Origin: Chloroflexota bacterium
Lineage (GTDB): Bacteria > Chloroflexota > UBA6077 > FW602-bin22 > JACPRP01
NCBI GenBank assembly: GCA_023480885.1
Contig: JAMCWX010000064.1
Coordinates: 1 to 64,000, forward strand
Length of the DNA: 64,000 nt
Direction: 5' to 3'
The notes under the pieces are model-generated. The model was not told the origin of the DNA. It saw nothing but the letters and a program-made list of their open reading frames with translations, and searched no databases. A program made the position numbers and the translations under genes. How positions within the stretch are numbered: position 1 is the first letter of the stretch; every line of letters starts with the position of its first letter. Positions 15,972-28,032 of this stretch are shown in pieces.

Positions 15972-18719
15972 ATGCAGGCGGTATCAGGATTGAGAAGCCG
16001 TGCCAGCTTGCCCAGGTTAGCTTTCACGATAGTAATGATCCTCTGGCCGATGCTGCTGCGCAACGACTACGCGCTAAGCGTGATGGTGTTCGCCGGCCTC
16101 TATGCGATGCTGGCCCTCGGCCTTGGGCTCCTGCTCGGCCAGGCTGGCCAGATCTCCCTGGGCCACGCCGCCTTCTTCGGCATAGGAGCTTACACCAGCG
16201 CCCTCCTCACCACCAGGCTCGACGCGCCCCCAATTCTGGCGCTGGCCGCCGGCGGTGTACTGGCCGGGATCGTCGCCTACGTCGTCGGCAGGCCCGTGCT
16301 CCGTCTCAAGACCTACTTCCTTGCTCTGGCCACCCTGGGGCTTGGAGAGATCTTCGCGGTCTGTGCACGCGAGACAGGCTGGCTGACCGGCGGCCAGGTA
16401 GGAGTGGTGGGAATCCCGTGGCTGGAGGTCGGCGGCTTTGCCGTCGATGACTACTTCAAGCAATACTACGTCGTCTGGGCCCTCGTGCTCGTACTCTTGT
16501 TTCTGACGGAGCGGGCGATGAGATCGCGGGTGGGCAGGGCCCTCCGCGCCCTGGCGACCAGCGAGGTGGCAGCCTCGACGTTGGGCATCTATACGGCGGA
16601 CTGGAAGCTGCGCGCCTTCGTGGTGAGCGCCGTGTACGCGGGGATCGGAGGAGGCCTGTACCCCTTCGTGATATCGGCCATAAGCTGGAGGGATTTTGGC
16701 GCCATCCTGTCCATGCTGGTGGTGATCATGGTGATGATCGGCGGCGTGAGCAGCCTTTTTGGCGCGGTGGTCGGCGCCATCCTGATAACCTGGCTTGGGC
16801 GTGCTTTCTCCAGTTACCAGGAATTCAGCGGGAGTATTTATGCGCTCGTGCTGATCCTGCTGTTGTTGTTCCTGCCCGGGGGGCTAGCTGGGGGACTCCG
16901 ACCGAACCAGGCCGAACGCATCCGAGGCTTGCTGAAGGCGATTGGCCAATGGCTGTTGCCACGACCGCGACGTTCGCCGACGAGGAACGGGAGGGCGCCG
17001 GAGCCAGTCTCGGCTCTCCCCCCTGCAGTGGTCGCCGAGCAGGAATGGGCCGGGGAATTAGCACGACTCAAGTGCCAGCCAAAGATCGAAGCTATTCAAT
17101 CGGCTGATCGGGAGCCTTTGCTTAGGCTCGAAGGAGTGAGCGTGAGCTTTGGGGGGCTGCAAGCGCTGAGCCAGGTATCCTTGGCGCTCCCAGAAGGCGG
17201 CATCGCGGCGCTCATCGGGCCGAACGGTGCGGGTAAGACGACGTTGTTCAACATAGTCAGCGGCCTCCAGCGACCATCAGAAGGGAGGGTCTGTTTCGCA
17301 GGCCAGGAGATCACACGCCGACCGGCCGCAGACATCGCCCGGCTGGGAATGGCTAGGACCTTCCAGAGTCTCCGTGTCTTTGCAAACATGACTGTGCTGG
17401 AAAACGTGATGGTCGGGAGGCATCGACACGAGAGGGCGGGCTTCATCACGGCGGCAGTGGGGTTGGGCGCGCAGGCCCGAGAGGAGCAGGAGTCGCGGAA
17501 ACGTAGCCTGGAGGCGCTGGCTCTCGTGGGGCTGGATCACCTGGCCGAGTGGCCGGTGACAGCCCTGCCGTACGGGCAGCAGCGGCTGGTGGAGATCGCT
17601 CGGGCGCTGGCCACCGAGCCGCGCCTGCTGCTGTTGGACGAGCCGGCCGCCGGAATGAACGCACCGGAACGAGCGCAGTTGGTGGAGAAGGTGGCACGCA
17701 TCCGCAATGCGGGCGTGACGGTGCTGCTGGTCGAGCACGACATGGGCCTCGTCATGGGCATTTCGGACACAGTCAGCGTGCTCGACTATGGGAAGCTGAT
17801 CGCCGAAGGTGCGCCTGAAGACATACAGACGCATCCGGCAGTCATCGAAGCCTATTTGGGAGTCAACCACAGGGACAAGGAGGGTTTGTTAGTGGCGGTC
17901 GGGAGCCAAGTGCCAGGGGCAGGCTTGCCTGCGCAGCCCACTGGCGAGGGAAAACCGCTGCTGGAAGTTGAGCATATCTCCACATACTACGGTTCGATCG
18001 GCGCGGTGAGAAACGCCTCCCTGCAGGTGCGCCCCGGCGAGATCGTCGCCGTTCTCGGATCCAACGGCGCGGGCAAGACCACGCTCCTGCGCACCATCTC
18101 GGGCGTGCTCCGACCGCGAGGCGGGAGGATAATCTACGACGGCCGGGAAATAACACCTCTGTCGCCGCCGCAGATCGTGGCCTGTGGCATTGGCCACGTG
18201 CCTGAAGGGCGTCTCATCTTCCCCACGCTCAGCGTCCACGACAATCTCCTCCTCGGCACGTGCCTACGTCGAGATCGAGTGGAGATTGGCGTAGACCTGG
18301 AGTTTGTGTACGATCTGTTCCCGGCGCTGGCTGATCGTCGCCATCAGATTGCAGGAACGCTATCAGGAGGAGAGCAGCAGATGCTGGCGATAGGACGGGC
18401 GCTGATGGGCCATCCCAAGTTGCTGCTGCTGGACGAGCCATCGATGGGCCTCGCGCCGCTGGTCGTGGAGCACATCTTCGAGGCGTTGGTGACCCTCAAC
18501 CGGCGAGGTCTGACCCTGGTCATGGTGGAGCAAAACGCGGAAATGGCGCTTTCCATCGCCGATCAGGCGGTGGTTTTGCAAACGGGGACGGTGGCTTTAG
18601 CCGGACCTGCGACAGCGCTTCGGCAGGATCGACGAGTGCAGGGACTGTATCTGGGCGTGAAGGAGCCCGCGCAGGAAAATGGAGGTCGGCCACAGGCGCG
18701 CACCACAGTTTCGCTCTAA
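15972..18719 (+). CDS. LivM-LivG-LivF triple fusion (permease plus two ATPases)
   Basis: 915-residue chain joining three normally separate subunits. Residues 1 to about 300 are a LivM permease (GLGLLLGQAGQISLGHAAFFGIGAY). After a linker rich in Pro and Arg (about 305-370), residues 375-640 are LivG with Walker A GPNGAGKTT near 416 and LLLLDEPAAGMN near 551. A second linker leads to LivF (about 660-890) with Walker A GSNGAGKTT near 695, LSGGEQQML and LLLLDEPSMGLAP. All catalytic motifs are intact in both ATPases. Frame is continuous with no internal stop. LivM-LivG fusions are known; a single polypeptide carrying one permease and both ATPases is unusual. LivH is still separate. Confidence 0.93.
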   Translation: MQAVSGLRSRASLPRLAFTIVMILWPMLLRNDYALSVMVFAGLYAMLALGLGLLLGQAGQISLGHAAFFGIGAYTSALLTTRLDAPPILALAAGGVLAGIVAYVVGRPVLRLKTYFLALATLGLGEIFAVCARETGWLTGGQVGVVGIPWLEVGGFAVDDYFKQYYVVWALVLVLLFLTERAMRSRVGRALRALATSEVAASTLGIYTADWKLRAFVVSAVYAGIGGGLYPFVISAISWRDFGAILSMLVVIMVMIGGVSSLFGAVVGAILITWLGRAFSSYQEFSGSIYALVLILLLLFLPGGLAGGLRPNQAERIRGLLKAIGQWLLPRPRRSPTRNGRAPEPVSALPPAVVAEQEWAGELARLKCQPKIEAIQSADREPLLRLEGVSVSFGGLQALSQVSLALPEGGIAALIGPNGAGKTTLFNIVSGLQRPSEGRVCFAGQEITRRPAADIARLGMARTFQSLRVFANMTVLENVMVGRHRHERAGFITAAVGLGAQAREEQESRKRSLEALALVGLDHLAEWPVTALPYGQQRLVEIARALATEPRLLLLDEPAAGMNAPERAQLVEKVARIRNAGVTVLLVEHDMGLVMGISDTVSVLDYGKLIAEGAPEDIQTHPAVIEAYLGVNHRDKEGLLVAVGSQVPGAGLPAQPTGEGKPLLEVEHISTYYGSIGAVRNASLQVRPGEIVAVLGSNGAGKTTLLRTISGVLRPRGGRIIYDGREITPLSPPQIVACGIGHVPEGRLIFPTLSVHDNLLLGTCLRRDRVEIGVDLEFVYDLFPALADRRHQIAGTLSGGEQQMLAIGRALMGHPKLLLLDEPSMGLAPLVVEHIFEALVTLNRRGLTLVMVEQNAEMALSIADQAVVLQTGTVALAGPATALRQDRRVQGLYLGVKEPAQENGGRPQARTTVSL

Positions 18720-19302: not shown

Positions 19303-21024
19303 ATGGGTAAGATCATTCGGATCAACATGAACAGCGCCACGGTCACATCTGAGGATGTTCCTCAGGAGTACGTGCTGCTTGGCGGCCGCGGGCTAACGTC
19401 GACCATTGTCGCGCGGGAGGTGCCGGCCACGTGCCATCCCCTCTCGGCGCAGAACAAGCTCGTGATCGCCCCCGGCCTCCTGACAGGGACATCAGCGCCT
19501 TGCTCAGGACGTCTCTCGATAGGCTGTAAGAGCCCCCTGACCAACACGATCAAGGAGAGCAACGTCGGCGGAACGGCCGGCGCCAAGCTGGCCAGGCTGG
19601 GCATAACAGCGCTCACCATCGAAGGGACCGCCAAGGACGGAGAGACCTACATCCTGAACGTTACAAAGGACCGAGCCGAGTTGGTGCCCAACGGGGCCTT
19701 TACGCGCATCGGCAATTACGCCTTTGCCAACCACATGCGCCAGAAGTACGGCGACAAGGTTAGCGTCATCTCGACTGGCCCTGCCGGCGAAATGAAGTTA
19801 TCCGTGGCCACTATCGCCGTCACCGATATGGATGGAAGGCCCTCACGCCACGCCGGCCGAGGTGGAACGGGGGCCGTGATGGGCAGCAAGGGTTTGAAGG
19901 GCATCGTGATCGACGATGCCGGAACATCGCCTGTACAGCCCGTCGACCGCGAGGGCTTTAGGGCTGGACAAGCCAAGATACTCAAGGCTCTGGCCGAACA
20001 CCCCGTGACCAGCCAGGCATTTCCTGCCCTTGGGACGGCAATGCTGGTGAACGTAATTAACACAGCAGGAGCTTTCCCAACCAGAAACTTCAGCGTGGGA
20101 CAGTTCGAAGGCGCGGAGAAGATCTCCGGCGAGGCCGTCAACAAGAATGCCACGTCGCGGCCAGGCGGCAAAATGGGCCATCCCTGCATGCCAGGGTGCG
20201 TCATTAAGTGCAGCAACGTCTACGTCGATGAGCACGGTGAGCACATCACGTCAGGACTGGAGTATGAGACGATCTGGGCCAATGGCGCCAATTGCGGCAT
20301 CGACGACCTGGACGCCATCGCCCGCATCGATCGTCTTTGCGACGATTTCGGTCTGGACACCATGGAAACTGGCGCAGCCATCGCCGTGGCGATGGCGGCA
20401 GGAGTGAAGAGCTTCGGCGACGCCCAGGGCGCCATACAGCTTATACGGGAAATCGCGGAGGGAACACCATTAGGCCGGATATTGGGGAGCGGCGCCGAAG
20501 TCACAGGCAAGGTTTATGGTATCGAACGCGTGCCGACGGTCAAGGGGCAAGCGATGGCTGCCTACGATCCGCGAGCGCTTAAGGGCAATGGCGTCACGTA
20601 TGCCACGTCGCCCATGGGAGCCGATCATACGGCCGCCAACGTCTTTGCGCCGAACCTCGGTGGCATCCCTGGGCTATCTGCTGAAGGGCAGGCCGAACTC
20701 AGCAAATCCGTACAAACCATAATAGCTGCCCACGATTACACCGGGCTTTGCACGTTCGTTACTGCCGTCGCAGCGGCCGACATACCGACGGGGTTGGATG
20801 GCATCGTCGAGATGCTGAGCGCCCTGCTTGGCGCCAACGTGACCATCGACTCCTATTCGGAACTGGGCAAAAGGATCCTCGCGGTGGAGCGCGAATTCAA
20901 TGCGAGAGCTGGCTTCAGCGCCGTTCACGACCGTCTGCCGTTGTGGATGACTCGGGAACCGCTCCCGCCTCACCACACCGTTTTCGACGTGAGTGAGAGC
21001 GACCTGGATTCAGTGCGTATGTGA
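19303..21024 (+). CDS. Tungsten-type aldehyde ferredoxin oxidoreductase
   Basis: 573-residue AOR-family enzyme. The N-terminal pterin-binding domain starts GKIIRINMNSATVTSEDVP and has LLGGRGLTS and FAPGL-like VIAPGLLTGTSAPCSGRLS. A [4Fe-4S] cluster set is visible as CMPGCVIKC near residue 290 (C-x3-C-x3-C, where Pyrococcus AOR has C-x2-C-x3-C) and a distal Cys in YTGLC. Established knowledge: AORs hold a tungsto-bispterin and oxidise aldehydes to acids with ferredoxin; some act on carboxylates or aromatic acids. It is about 30-40 residues shorter than the Pyrococcus enzyme. It is followed after nine bases by the lipoyl protein gene. A paralogue is at 26296. Confidence 0.9.
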   Translation: MGKIIRINMNSATVTSEDVPQEYVLLGGRGLTSTIVAREVPATCHPLSAQNKLVIAPGLLTGTSAPCSGRLSIGCKSPLTNTIKESNVGGTAGAKLARLGITALTIEGTAKDGETYILNVTKDRAELVPNGAFTRIGNYAFANHMRQKYGDKVSVISTGPAGEMKLSVATIAVTDMDGRPSRHAGRGGTGAVMGSKGLKGIVIDDAGTSPVQPVDREGFRAGQAKILKALAEHPVTSQAFPALGTAMLVNVINTAGAFPTRNFSVGQFEGAEKISGEAVNKNATSRPGGKMGHPCMPGCVIKCSNVYVDEHGEHITSGLEYETIWANGANCGIDDLDAIARIDRLCDDFGLDTMETGAAIAVAMAAGVKSFGDAQGAIQLIREIAEGTPLGRILGSGAEVTGKVYGIERVPTVKGQAMAAYDPRALKGNGVTYATSPMGADHTAANVFAPNLGGIPGLSAEGQAELSKSVQTIIAAHDYTGLCTFVTAVAAADIPTGLDGIVEMLSALLGANVTIDSYSELGKRILAVEREFNARAGFSAVHDRLPLWMTREPLPPHHTVFDVSESDLDSVRM

Positions 21025-21033
21025 GGACTATCT

Positions 21034-21582
21034 ATGGCTGTCGAATTCAAGATGCCCAAGCTGGGCATGACGATGAAGAAGGGAATTGTTTCCAAATGGC
21101 TCAAGCGTGAGGGCGACCCCGTGGCCCAGGGCGAGCTCATCGCCGAGATAATGACCGAGAAGATCACGATCGAGATCGAGTCGCCCGGCACAGGAATACT
21201 GAAGACTATCCTCGTACCCCTGAAAAAAGAGGTGCCTGTTGGCACTACGCTGGCGTGGATAGGCGCCGTCGATGAGGCGATGCCGGTGTCAGGATCGCAG
21301 CCACAGGTGGTCGCAGTTGCTGCGGCTGCTGCCTCTGCGCCTGCCATAGAGGAGGACGGCCGGATCAAAGCATCTCCCGCGGCAAGGCGCGTGGCCAAAG
21401 AGCACGGCATCGACATAGCGCTGGTATCCCCATCCGGCAGCGACGGACGCATCAGCAGCGAGGACGTCCTGTCACACGTCGCCGCCCAACAGGCCAGCGC
21501 TAAGGCCGCTGGAGCCATCGTCGCTTCGGAGGCGGCGAAAAGGCTGGCTCAGGAGAGGGGCGTCGACCTGGCGGCAGTATGA
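21034..21582 (+). CDS. E2 acyltransferase N-terminal part: lipoyl plus subunit-binding domain
   Basis: 182 residues up to an in-frame TGA. Residues 1-78 are a lipoyl domain with the lipoylated Lys at K43 in MTEKITIEIES. An Ala-rich linker leads to a peripheral-subunit-binding domain (about 108-150, KASPAARRVAKEHGIDIALV, then SDGRISSEDV). A second such domain begins at about 165 (AAKRLAQERGVDLAAV) and is cut by TGA at 21580-21582. Reading on in the same frame restores its missing half and the catalytic domain (next entry). So this is either the first part of a broken or read-through E2, or a separate lipoyl carrier. Neighbours use TGA as an ordinary stop. Confidence 0.8.
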   Translation: MAVEFKMPKLGMTMKKGIVSKWLKREGDPVAQGELIAEIMTEKITIEIESPGTGILKTILVPLKKEVPVGTTLAWIGAVDEAMPVSGSQPQVVAVAAAAASAPAIEEDGRIKASPAARRVAKEHGIDIALVSPSGSDGRISSEDVLSHVAAQQASAKAAGAIVASEAAKRLAQERGVDLAAV

Positions 21583-21690
21583 TCGGCTCCCGGGGAGAAG
21601 CGGAGGCTAACCACCGAAGACGTCGAGTCCTACCTTGAGGCCCGAGGAGCTCAGCTGGCGGCCAGTCCTCGCGCGATCCCCCTGGTTGGC

Positions 21691-22359
21691 ATGCGCAAGA
21701 TGATCGCCGATCATCTGGTGCAAAGCCTGCACAACGCGGCCCAACTCACCGTATCTCTAGAGGTCGACGCCACCGAGCTGGTGAGGGCGAGGGAACTCAT
21801 CCTCCCCGGCTTCCAGGCCGCCACAGGCATAAGGCCGACGTTCACCGATCTGCTGATCGTGCTCGTGGCCAGGGCGCTGCAGCAGCACCCGATCCTCAAC
21901 TCGACGCTGGTCGACGACGAGATCATCCTGCACGAGGACGTCAACATGGGCGTGGCGGTAGCGATCGACAGCGGGCTGATCGTCCCCGTGATTCATCAAG
22001 CTCAGACGAAGTCGTTGGGCGAGATAACGCAAGCTCGATCAGAGCTGGCGCGCAAGGCCCTCGAAGGACGACTTGGCTACGAGGAAATTCTGGGAGGAAC
22101 GTTCACGATAACTAATCCCGGAGGGGCAGGCTCGGATATCGCGACCCCGATCCTGAATTCGCCCGAGAACGCTATCCTCGGGGTCGGACGCATCGTCAAG
22201 AAGCCTGCGGTGCACGACGACGAGATTTGCATCAGGCACATGCTATGGCTGAACCTGACATTCGACCACCGCGCGATGGACGGCGTGCCCGCCGCGCGTT
22301 TTCTGGAGACGCTGAACGCAATGATTCAAGAACCGCTGAAGTTCCTGGAGAAGCTATAG
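21691..22359 (+). CDS. E2 acyltransferase catalytic domain (same frame, after TGA)
   Basis: 222 residues forming a 2-oxoacid dehydrogenase acyltransferase catalytic domain: GMRKMIADHLVQSLHNAAQLTVS at the start, GVAVAIDSGLIVPVIHQA, and the active-site motif DHRAMDGVPAARFL (His and Asp of HxxxDG). The first ATG is 21691, but no convincing ribosome-binding site precedes it. The frame is open back to the TGA at 21582, and the 36 codons between encode the rest of the subunit-binding domain (PGEKRRLTTEDVESYL). It is therefore best seen as the second half of one E2 gene interrupted once. Acetyl or other acyl transfer to CoA is the expected reaction. Confidence 0.8.
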   Translation: MRKMIADHLVQSLHNAAQLTVSLEVDATELVRARELILPGFQAATGIRPTFTDLLIVLVARALQQHPILNSTLVDDEIILHEDVNMGVAVAIDSGLIVPVIHQAQTKSLGEITQARSELARKALEGRLGYEEILGGTFTITNPGGAGSDIATPILNSPENAILGVGRIVKKPAVHDDEICIRHMLWLNLTFDHRAMDGVPAARFLETLNAMIQEPLKFLEKL

Positions 22360-22369
22360 GCAGGTGGTA

Positions 22370-23743
22370 ATGGAGAGCTTCGATCTTATCGTAACTGGTA
22401 GTGGCCCCGCCGGCTACGCGGCGGCGATCAGAGGAGCCGCGCTGGGCGCAAGAGTGGCCCTGGTGGAGAGAGATGCGCTGGGCGGCACGTGCGTGAACCG
22501 TGGCTGTATCCCTACAAAGTTTATGATGGAGGCCGCCGAAACCGCGGCAGCCATCGGCAGATCTGGCACATTTGGGCTCAGGGCCAGCCTGGAATCTGTC
22601 GACCTAAAAGGGATTAAGGAGAGAAAGAATGCGTTGATCGAAACCCTCGGCGAGGGCATGGTTGCAATGCTGGAAATGGCTGGCATCCGCGTCATCCGTG
22701 GCTCATCCTGCTTCACCTCGCCCCAAACGCTGATTGTGACCGATCCTGAGGGCGAGAAAGCGGAGATCACATCGCCGAAGACAATCATCGCCACTGGCGC
22801 CTCTTTTGCCCCTATTCGGGTTCCTGGCCTTAAGAACGACGAGATGCTCACGACGGAGAAGGCATTCGCATTGGAGAAGCTGCCTGAAAGCGTCGTGATC
22901 GTGGGAGGTGATGCTATTGCCCTAGAGTGGAGCTGTCTGTTCAACGCGCTGGGAAGCCAGGTGACTGTCGTAGAGGGAGGGAGCCACATCGCGCCCGGCG
23001 AGGACGTGGAGATGAGCGCATTATTTATGGAGGCCCTCGAACAAACAGGGATAAGCTTCGAAGTTGGGGCGAAGGTAGAGAGAGCACACGTCGACGAAGA
23101 GGGCGATAAGCATCTGCAGATCTCAGATGGACGGCAAATTCGTCAGATCACGGCTCAGGAAGTGTTCGTCGTGCCAGAGAGAATCCCTAACACGGAGAAT
23201 CTTGGGTTAGACGTCGCCGGGGTGACCGTGAGAGACGGCGTAATACTGGTTGACGACAAGATGGAAACTAACGTCGACGGCATTTATGCCGCGGGCGACG
23301 TGGCTGGAGGTCGTATGTTGTCCCACGTCGCGTCGGCACAGGGGCAAGTTGCGGCAGATAACGCGTTGGGAAGACACAGGTGGTTTGGCAGGCAGACCGT
23401 GCCCCGCTGCGTTTACACGATGCCCCAGTTCGCGGCAGTCGGGCTGACGGAAGAAGAGGCTCAGCGCAACGGACGGGAGGTGAAGATAGGGACCGCGTCC
23501 CTGGCGATGAATGCCAGAGCGGCTACTATTGCCAGACGAGAAGGTGTGATTAAGGTCATAGCCGATGCACGGCACGGCGATATCCTGGGGGTTCACATCG
23601 TTGGGGCGTTAGCCACCGAGACCATCGCGCAGGCTGTGTTGGCCATGAGTTTGGAATGCACGGTCGGCGATTTCAGCCGGGTGCTCCAGGCCCATCCGAC
23701 GCTAGCGGAGGCGCTGGTCGAGGCGATTAAGGCGGCTAAATGA
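22370..23743 (+). CDS. lpdA: Dihydrolipoyl dehydrogenase (E3)
   Basis: 457-residue flavoprotein disulfide reductase. FAD-binding GSGPAGYAAAIRGA at residues 10-23, redox pair C41/C46 in GGTCVNRGCIPTK, NAD-binding VIVGGDAIALEWSC (with Asp in place of a usual Gly, GGDAIA for GGGxIG) and C-terminal HPTLAEALVEA holding the His-Glu dyad. ATG 22370 is preferred to the GTG two codons earlier. It reoxidises the lipoyl groups of the neighbouring E2. It lies between E2 and E1alpha in one transcription direction. Confidence 0.92.
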   Translation: MESFDLIVTGSGPAGYAAAIRGAALGARVALVERDALGGTCVNRGCIPTKFMMEAAETAAAIGRSGTFGLRASLESVDLKGIKERKNALIETLGEGMVAMLEMAGIRVIRGSSCFTSPQTLIVTDPEGEKAEITSPKTIIATGASFAPIRVPGLKNDEMLTTEKAFALEKLPESVVIVGGDAIALEWSCLFNALGSQVTVVEGGSHIAPGEDVEMSALFMEALEQTGISFEVGAKVERAHVDEEGDKHLQISDGRQIRQITAQEVFVVPERIPNTENLGLDVAGVTVRDGVILVDDKMETNVDGIYAAGDVAGGRMLSHVASAQGQVAADNALGRHRWFGRQTVPRCVYTMPQFAAVGLTEEEAQRNGREVKIGTASLAMNARAATIARREGVIKVIADARHGDILGVHIVGALATETIAQAVLAMSLECTVGDFSRVLQAHPTLAEALVEAIKAAK

Positions 23744-23830: not shown

Positions 23831-24790
23831 ATGGCATTCTCAGCAGAAGAAATGTTGGCGCTCTATCGCAAGATGCTGCTGGTCAGAAGAATGGAAGAGA
23901 AGCACGGCGAACTGCTGGCCTCTGGCGACATCTGGATGATGGGCCACTTTGGCACGGGACAGGAAGCCGTGGCCATCGGCATCACTGCCCCGCTCAAGAA
24001 AGAAGACTACCTCTTCCCGACTCACAGAGGGGTGGGCGAATTCATCGGCAAGGGGATGGTTCCTAAAGACATCTGGGCCGAGTACTACGGCCGGACTACT
24101 GGTCTGGCCAAAGGCAAGGGAGGATTACACCTGTCTGACGTCCGCGTCGGACTTATGGGCCTCGTGGGCAGCCTGGGAGCCGATTTTGCGGTGGCCGTGG
24201 GCACCGCTCTCTCTTCCAAAATGCGGGGCACCGGACAGGTGACGATGATCTATTTTGGCGACGGCACGTCTAACCAGGCCGACTTCCACCCATCGATGAA
24301 CCTGGCTGCCCTGTGGCAGTTGCCCATCGTCTTCGCTTGCGCCAACAACCAGTACTCCGAGCTAGCCCACTACCGGGAGACCACCTCCACGGAGCACATC
24401 GCGCCGCGGGCCGCAGGCTATGGCGTGCCCTGGAAGATCGTCGAGGATGGCAACGATATCCAAGCCGTCTACGCCGCGACTGCCGAGGCCGTGGACCGCG
24501 CCAGGCGCGGAGAAGGGCCCACCCTCGTCGAGTACAAGACTTATCGTATCGCGGCCCACTTCACAGGCGACCCGGGCGGCTACCAGCCAAAGGAAGAGAT
24601 CGAAGAGTGGAAGAAGAAAGATCCCATCGACAGGTTCAGGGCTCGTATTATCGAGCAGAAGGTCGCCACTGCAGACGATCTTGAAAACATGAATCGAGAG
24701 GTAATCGCCGAGGTTGAGGATGCGGTCAAGTACGCGCAGGAAAGCCCGTGGCCGGCCCCCGAGGATATCTATCAGGATTTGTATGCGTAG
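23831..24790 (+). CDS. Thiamine-dependent dehydrogenase E1 component, alpha subunit
   Basis: 319-residue E1alpha, similar to AcoA/PdhA/BkdA1. The ThDP motif is IYFGDGTSNQADFHPSMNLAALWQLPIVFACANNQ (GDG followed about 30 residues later by NN). Substrate-side motifs include THRGVGEFIGKGM and GKGKGGLHLSD. Gly-Lys-rich AKGKGG and the phosphorylation-loop-like region are of the acetoin-dehydrogenase/pyruvate type. A GGGAGGG ribosome-binding site precedes ATG 23831. With E1beta (next gene) it decarboxylates or cleaves a 2-oxo or acyloin substrate and passes the acyl group to lipoyl-E2. Confidence 0.92.
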   Translation: MAFSAEEMLALYRKMLLVRRMEEKHGELLASGDIWMMGHFGTGQEAVAIGITAPLKKEDYLFPTHRGVGEFIGKGMVPKDIWAEYYGRTTGLAKGKGGLHLSDVRVGLMGLVGSLGADFAVAVGTALSSKMRGTGQVTMIYFGDGTSNQADFHPSMNLAALWQLPIVFACANNQYSELAHYRETTSTEHIAPRAAGYGVPWKIVEDGNDIQAVYAATAEAVDRARRGEGPTLVEYKTYRIAAHFTGDPGGYQPKEEIEEWKKKDPIDRFRARIIEQKVATADDLENMNREVIAEVEDAVKYAQESPWPAPEDIYQDLYA

Positions 24791-24803: not shown

Positions 24804-25775
24804 ATGACGAGAACGATCACATACCAGCAGGCGATCAACGAAACCCTCAGGCAGGAGATGGAGAAGGACAAGATGGTCTTCATCCTCGGGGAAGATGTAA
24901 GAGTGAGTCCCTTCGGGCAAACCGCTGGCCTGGTGGAACAGTTCGGCAAGGAACGCGTGCGCAACACCTGCATCGCCGAGTCGGCTATCGTCGGCACTGC
25001 CATCGGTGCGGCGATGACCGGGATGCGGCCGGTGGCCGAGATAATGTTCGCCGACTTCATGTACCTCGCTATGGATGCAATTGCGAGCCAGGCGGCTTCG
25101 TGGAGATATATGACAGGGGGCCAGGTCAAGTTGCCGCTCGTCATCCGAACGGTGTCTGGAGCCGGCTGGGCTATGGGCTATAACCACTCCCAGAGCACGG
25201 AGGCTTCGTTCATGCACCCCCCGGGCCTGAAGATCGCTGTTCCCTCGACACCACACGATGCTGCCGGACTATTGCGCACGGCAATCAGGGACGATAATCC
25301 AGTCCTCTTCTTCGAGCACAAGTTCCTGTTTCCCACGAGTGGAGAAGTGCCCGACGAGGAGTACGCTATCCCCTTTGGCCAGGCGGACGTGAAGCGACAA
25401 GGCAAACACGTGACCGTGGTGGCGACGCTGTTAATGGTCCACAAGGCGCTGGCCGCTGCCGATGAGCTCAGCCAGGAGGGGATCGAGGTTGAAGTCGTCG
25501 ACCCTCGCACGCTGACGCCTCTGGACAAGGAAACGATTCTGGCCTCAGTCAAGAAGACTGGGCGCCTGGTAACCGTCGAGGAAAGCCGTGCGCGAAACGG
25601 CGTCGGTGCAGAGATCGCCGCGATGGTAGCATCCGAGGGGTTCGATTTTCTCGATGCGCCAATCCAACGCGTGGGAGCGCCGGATGTGCCAATCCCTTAT
25701 AGCCCACCACTGGAGAGCACGTTCATTCCCAACGAGGATCGTATCATTGAGGCGGTCAGGAGGGTCCTGGGGTAA
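24804..25775 (+). CDS. Thiamine-dependent dehydrogenase E1 component, beta subunit
   Basis: 323-residue E1beta, similar to AcoB/PdhB. The N-terminus TITYQQAINETLRQEMEKDKMVFILGEDV and EQFGKERVRNTCIAESAIVGTAIGAAMTGMRPVAEIMFADF are typical, as is the C-terminal VEVVDPRTLTPLDKETILASVKKTGRLVTVEE. An AGGAGG site lies 9 bases before the ATG, 13 bases after E1alpha. It ends the dehydrogenase block. The E1/E2/E3 set is complete in one operon, but E1 sequences alone do not distinguish pyruvate, branched 2-oxoacid or acetoin as substrate. Confidence 0.92.
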   Translation: MTRTITYQQAINETLRQEMEKDKMVFILGEDVRVSPFGQTAGLVEQFGKERVRNTCIAESAIVGTAIGAAMTGMRPVAEIMFADFMYLAMDAIASQAASWRYMTGGQVKLPLVIRTVSGAGWAMGYNHSQSTEASFMHPPGLKIAVPSTPHDAAGLLRTAIRDDNPVLFFEHKFLFPTSGEVPDEEYAIPFGQADVKRQGKHVTVVATLLMVHKALAAADELSQEGIEVEVVDPRTLTPLDKETILASVKKTGRLVTVEESRARNGVGAEIAAMVASEGFDFLDAPIQRVGAPDVPIPYSPPLESTFIPNEDRIIEAVRRVLG

Positions 25776-26295: not shown

Positions 26296-28032
26296 ATGAG
26301 CCGGATTCTGCGCGTCAATATGACCGATCTGTCTACTAAGTTCGAAGAGGTTCCTGAGAAATACAGGCTGCTTGGCGGCCGTGGCCTGACATCGAACATC
26401 GTCTTTGACGAAGTGCCTCCTGATTGCCATCCCCTCGGACCGAACAACAAGGTGATTTTTGCCCCTGGCCTAGTTACTGGCACCTCTGCGCCCAGTTCTG
26501 GCCGCCTCTCTGTCGGTGGCAAGAGCCCACTCACTGGTGGCATCAAGGAAGCTAACGCTGGCGGCATCGCCTCGCAAAAGATCGCCAGGCTGGGCATCAA
26601 GGCCATCATCGTCGAGGGCCAGGCTCAGGACGGCAAGTTCTACTCTCTCAAGGTAAATAAGGACGGCGCTTCCCTCGTCTCCGCCGACGATATCGTCGGC
26701 AAAGGCATGTACGAGGCCGACGAGATCATCTGGAGGAAGCACCCAAACAAGCCCGGCGTGATCGGCATCGGTCCCGCGGGCGAAATGCGCCTGGCCAACG
26801 CCGGCGTCTCGGTCAACGATTCCGAGAATGGCCCCGGCCGCTACGCTGGCCGCGGAGGCCTCGGCGCCGTGATGGGGTCCAAAGGGCTTAAGGCCATAAT
26901 CGTGGACGACAAGGGCGGACCGGGAGTGTCAGTCGCGAACCCGGAGCTCTTCAAGCAGGAAGCCAAGAAACTCGCCGATGCCCTTCTCACTCACGCCGTT
27001 ACTTCCCAGGCTCTGCCCAACTATGGCACGGCCGTCTTGATCAACATCTTAAACGAGGCCGGCGGTCTGCCAACTCGCAACTTCAGCTCTGGCCGATTCG
27101 AAGGTGCCGCCAAAGTCAGCGGCGAGATGATCAACGAGCTGGCTACCAAGGTCCGCAAGGGCGCAGGCAGGGTCGCTCACCCCTGTCACCCAGGCTGCGT
27201 CATCAAATGCTCCAACGTGTTCCCCAAGCCTGACGGTTCCTATCACGTCTCGTGTGTCGAGTACGAGTCCGACTGGGCCTTCGGACCCAACTGCGGCATC
27301 GACGATCTCGACGCTATCGCCGAGCTCGTCCGCATCAGTAACGACGTTGGGCTGGATACCATCGAAGCCGGCGTGACTGTCGGCGTCGCGATGGAAGCGG
27401 GAATAATCCCCTTCGGCGACGGACAGGCCGCGATCAACCTCTTGAGCGAGGTCGGCAAGGGCACGCCGCTGGGACGGATCATCGGCAACGGCGCTACCTT
27501 CACCGGCAGGGCCTTCGGCGTGACGCGAATACCTGCCGTGAAAGGACAGGCCATGCCTGCCTACGATCCACGGCCCATCAAGGGCATCGGCGTGACCTAC
27601 GCGACGTCGACGATGGGCGCCGATCACACCTCAGGCTATACCATTGCACCTGAAATCCTTGGCGTCGGCGGCAAAGCCGACCCATTCGCCGTAAACAAAG
27701 GGGAGCTATCAAGAGCATTCCAGGCAACGACTGCCTTTGTCGATGCCTCGGGCTACTGTCTATTCATTGCCTTCGCCATCCTGGACATCGCCAGTGGATT
27801 CGAGGGCATGGTCAATTCCGTGAACGCCATGTATGGCACCGATTGGACTGGCGACGACGTCGTCAAAATCGGCCAGCAAATCATCAAGACGGAGCGAACT
27901 TTCAACGAGCGCGCTGGTTTTACTAAGGAACACGACCGCGTGCCAGAGTTTATGAGACTGGAGAAGCTGCCGCCGCATAACGTCGTCTTCGACGTTTCTG
28001 ACGAAGAGCTCGACGCAGTATACGCATTCTAG
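26296..28032 (+). CDS. Tungsten-type aldehyde ferredoxin oxidoreductase, second copy
   Basis: 578-residue paralogue of the 19303-21024 enzyme, with the same start (RILRVNMTDLSTKFEEVPEKYRLLGGRGLTSNIVFDEVP), the same cluster motif CHPGCVIKC and distal Cys in SGYC. The two differ throughout, so the duplication is old or they were acquired separately. It has an AAGGAG site, its own promoter, and is followed by three MoaD-like genes, implying that pterin-cofactor supply is linked to it. Substrate unknown; by family an aldehyde or carboxylate, electron partner ferredoxin. Confidence 0.9.
   Translation: MSRILRVNMTDLSTKFEEVPEKYRLLGGRGLTSNIVFDEVPPDCHPLGPNNKVIFAPGLVTGTSAPSSGRLSVGGKSPLTGGIKEANAGGIASQKIARLGIKAIIVEGQAQDGKFYSLKVNKDGASLVSADDIVGKGMYEADEIIWRKHPNKPGVIGIGPAGEMRLANAGVSVNDSENGPGRYAGRGGLGAVMGSKGLKAIIVDDKGGPGVSVANPELFKQEAKKLADALLTHAVTSQALPNYGTAVLINILNEAGGLPTRNFSSGRFEGAAKVSGEMINELATKVRKGAGRVAHPCHPGCVIKCSNVFPKPDGSYHVSCVEYESDWAFGPNCGIDDLDAIAELVRISNDVGLDTIEAGVTVGVAMEAGIIPFGDGQAAINLLSEVGKGTPLGRIIGNGATFTGRAFGVTRIPAVKGQAMPAYDPRPIKGIGVTYATSTMGADHTSGYTIAPEILGVGGKADPFAVNKGELSRAFQATTAFVDASGYCLFIAFAILDIASGFEGMVNSVNAMYGTDWTGDDVVKIGQQIIKTERTFNERAGFTKEHDRVPEFMRLEKLPPHNVVFDVSDEELDAVYAF

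Follow-up and report, generated by a model that had tools for sequence, protein, structure and literature searches.

A Lone In-Frame TGA Interrupts the Predicted E2 Gene of a Second Pyruvate Dehydrogenase-like Operon in a Chloroflexota Genome

The 64,000-nucleotide stretch of Chloroflexota DNA analyzed here (the window) carries a dihydrolipoyl acyltransferase (E2) gene, putatively encoding the core subunit of a second pyruvate dehydrogenase-like (2-oxoacid dehydrogenase) complex, that is interrupted by a single in-frame TGA codon (Table 1). This TGA is most likely a one-off nonsense base, the rest of the gene being sound: either a real and recent mutation or an error of the consensus. The stop stands alone in the sampled sequence of the genome, relatives are intact among the E2 matches listed, and no machinery for recoding was found. 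The finding matters mainly for annotation: the appropriate label is an interrupted gene, not two proteins or a recoded one.

Table 1. Coordinates of the interrupted E2 gene, its domains and the neighboring genes in the window
Feature	Position	Strand	Basis
Aldehyde ferredoxin oxidoreductase gene, upstream of E2	19303..21024		
E2 (dihydrolipoyl acyltransferase) gene, a single frame broken by one TGA	21034..22359	+	Translation, relatives and Pfam
Lipoyl domain, residues 4-75	21043..21258	+	PF00364 (Biotin_lipoyl)
First E3-binding domain, residues 111-146	21364..21471	+	PF02817
Second E3-binding domain, broken by the TGA	21523..21627	+	PF02817, 29.7 bits across the TGA
In-frame TGA nonsense codon	21580..21582	+	Translation; relatives
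Catalytic acyltransferase domain with DHRAMDG motif	21667..22344	+	PF00198
First ATG 3' of the TGA, without ribosome-binding site	21691..21693	+	Anti-SD duplex -2.2 kcal/mol
E3, dihydrolipoyl dehydrogenase, intact	22364..23743	+	Pfam; stop check
E1 alpha, intact	23831..24790	+	Pfam; stop check
E1 beta, intact	24804..25775	+	Pfam; stop check
Second aldehyde ferredoxin oxidoreductase gene, downstream of E1 beta	26296..28032		

A sequence-only reading had described this gene as one continuous E2 frame with a single TGA, beyond which translation restores the second subunit-binding domain and the catalytic domain, and both descriptions hold. The TGA is the sole stop before the end of the frame, and once it is treated as a sense codon, a single frame matches the Pfam families Biotin_lipoyl, E3_binding (twice) and 2-oxoacid_dh (residues 212-437; score 242.5 bits, cut-off 23); only in this way do the lipoyl, E3-binding and catalytic domains of an E2 acyltransferase come together. 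The part of the second E3-binding domain that precedes the TGA reaches 21.9 bits alone, below the cut-off, versus 29.7 bits with both sides included. The continuity of the frame across the TGA reflects homology and not chance. The stop had also been placed in a linker-like turn; the alignment agrees with a loop position, at which the residue varies among relatives, but this loop belongs to the second E3-binding domain. Codon scores are alike on the two sides of the TGA (0.332 upstream, 0.363 downstream) and thus reveal no decay, and since neither codon usage nor domain scores have decayed past the stop, the lesion is either recent or an error. Tandem E3-binding domains, which here span 21364-21627, were also read from the alignment in the E2 of about eight relatives from the phylum (L004, L005, L008, L009, L012, L014, L016 and L025).

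The same reading had proposed a comparison of orthologues at the TGA. Of 61 genomes searched, 53, of the same phylum, gave E2 matches, and no stop lies inside any match listed from these 53, the window's own excepted. The nearest relative, a member of the phylum with 46% identity, two E3-binding domains and adjoining E1 genes, carries a sense codon at the TGA position. A set of 400 genomes drawn from the phylum contained no closer relative, and the genomes searched included none other from the same genus. A scan of genome contigs returned only distant Bacteroidota E2s. Plasmids yielded matches only below 60% identity, and the same locus was not found in viral contigs.

The genome assembly, a draft, comprises 76 contigs and 3.09 Mb and is 88.7% complete and 2.4% contaminated. 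A codon-usage scan for in-gene stops, rough and able to miss weakly scoring genes, covered 383 kb sampled from the genome, about 12% of its length, and left five candidates, of which the E2 TGA alone has domain support; of the other four, three mark ordinary boundaries between genes and the last is a short frame of unclear nature. No stop occurs inside any of 92 domain matches (82 to ABC ATPases and 10 to short-chain dehydrogenases), nor inside the E3, E1 alpha, E1 beta and two aldehyde ferredoxin oxidoreductase genes around the E2. The latter two are paralogous and flank the operon of the complex on both sides. A further frame of 915 residues lies at 15972-18719 in the window; with its two ABC ATPase domains and its permease-like N-terminal portion, it resembles a LivM-LivG-LivF fusion. 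Elsewhere in the genome, contig C44 carries an intact PDH operon in which E1 alpha, E1 beta and E2 are followed by LipA-like and LipB-like genes, as named by reading the sequences, so that a real loss of the interrupted complex would be tolerable.

On balance, we cautiously favor a recent single-base nonsense mutation that struck the E2 gene of this second 2-oxoacid dehydrogenase operon and is now either fixed or carried as a strain variant. It is consistent with the confinement of the stop to the window's E2 among the matches listed, with the sense codon and corresponding pair of E3-binding domains in the nearest relative, with the rarity of such lesions in the sampled 383 kb and the undecayed codon score, with the second PDH operon on C44, and with the ordinary decoding apparatus described below. 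Ribosomes would stop at 21580 and release a 182-residue fragment that contains the lipoyl domain and the first E3-binding domain and breaks off halfway through the second; lacking the catalytic core, such a truncated E2 would probably leave the complex inactive apart from basal misreading. We infer that the TGA is genuine and the complex lost. The same evidence, however, fits a consensus error equally, with the nearest relative at 46% identity, and the other operon genes, all intact, offer no further lesion as a sign of real loss.

A lesser but considerable probability falls to a fault of assembly or consensus calling, or to an allele from a minority strain, in what is a metagenome-type draft, the gene of the population itself being intact. 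The fragmented, incomplete and slightly contaminated assembly is in keeping with such an origin, as are a single substitution in a whole operon with undecayed codon usage and the intact relatives among the matches listed; the scan, however, found no further lesion of this kind in 383 kb, and the draft is therefore not visibly error-rich. Mutation and sequencing error had been offered beside recoding and a split gene as sources of the TGA, and the data support the first two without choosing between them, whereas the last two gained nothing.

It is unlikely that the TGA is functionally read through or recoded to yield full-length E2, and the genome gives no hint of deliberate read-through. Release factor RF2 is present (504 bits, over its cut-off), TGA terminates 49 of the 134 long ORFs in the genome sample, and the UCA anticodon is absent among all 40 tRNAs read from this 88.7% complete genome; UGA reassignment (codes 4 and 25) was rejected on these three grounds. 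Selenocysteine insertion was rejected on the same anticodon result and on the lack of any SelB match over the cut-off (best match 196 bits against 242 bits, where all 14 control genomes give some such match and only 2 of the 14 pass). The anticodon stem of the sole tRNA-Trp is complete, at 5 bp (GCTGT/ACAGC), and position 24, the site of the Hirsh suppressor change, is a G. With this stem and G24, the known UGA suppression route through a tRNA-Trp with a 4-bp anticodon stem (PMC13092985) is not applicable, and it too was rejected.

The context of the stop argues in the same direction. The base that follows it is T (TGA-T), a neighbor that makes termination more efficient in E. coli (PMC11126739). 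The small CTCC-CGG-GGAG hairpin noted earlier after the TGA does exist, but it has no special significance, as a comparable hairpin occurs in 10.7% of the window's 20-nt stretches; the RNA downstream of the stop, in a 74-nt fold, does no better than shuffles (z = -0.38), and no Rfam family matches over threshold around the TGA. Conservation of the stop in orthologues, a mark of programmed read-through, is likewise lacking among the other matches listed, of which the nearest is only 46% identical, and the suggestion of programmed read-through or recoding falls for want of both machinery and a stop in the listed relatives. On the other side stand the undecayed half downstream of the TGA, the variable loop residue at the site, and the fact that UGA is the leakiest bacterial stop, Trp being the residue most often inserted at it in E. 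coli (PMC11126739). Background UGA read-through varies widely among bacteria: one reporter gave 12% in E. coli against 0.04-0.08% in pseudomonads (PMC9481147), and a small amount of full-length E2 is therefore possible. It is highly improbable that tRNA-Trp reads through this UGA in a regulated way in this lineage, adjusting how much soluble lipoyl/E3-binding fragment is made relative to assembled full-length E2; if read-through were shown, it would represent an unusual stop-codon control of a metabolic complex.

Equally far-fetched is a naturally split E2, in which a lipoyl/E3-binding protein and a separately initiated catalytic core would be made, as had been suggested with reinitiation at 21691. 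This ATG is the first in-frame start codon 3' of the TGA and opens a 222-residue frame, but no ribosome-binding site precedes it: its upstream anti-SD pairing is weaker than the mean for internal Met codons (-3.2 kcal/mol) and than that of the operon's annotated starts (-5.9 to -11.8 kcal/mol). It also falls inside the conserved catalytic domain (profile position 12), the break halves a 36-residue domain, and none of the listed relatives is split at the TGA position. The ATGA overlap at 21579-21582 opens the wrong frame, for 19 codons only; reinitiation at either site is unsupported.

A lone nonsense codon in an intact frame is an ordinary kind of event. The window's E2 shares its domain order (PF00364-PF02817-PF00198) and catalytic motif with known 2-oxoacid dehydrogenase E2s, such as the PDH E2 of PDB 3duf, and likewise lies in an operon with E1 alpha, E1 beta and E3, but it has two E3-binding domains and a stop in the second. 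UGA recoding systems (selenocysteine insertion, UGA=Trp codes and the tRNA-Trp with a 4-bp stem, PMC13092985) similarly present an in-frame UGA followed by a conserved domain, whereas here none of their machinery was found and TGA is widely used as a stop. With young bacterial pseudogenes that carry a single nonsense codon, the gene has in common one substitution, a frame otherwise open, intact relatives and a second complex elsewhere, although here the base is that of an assembly consensus.
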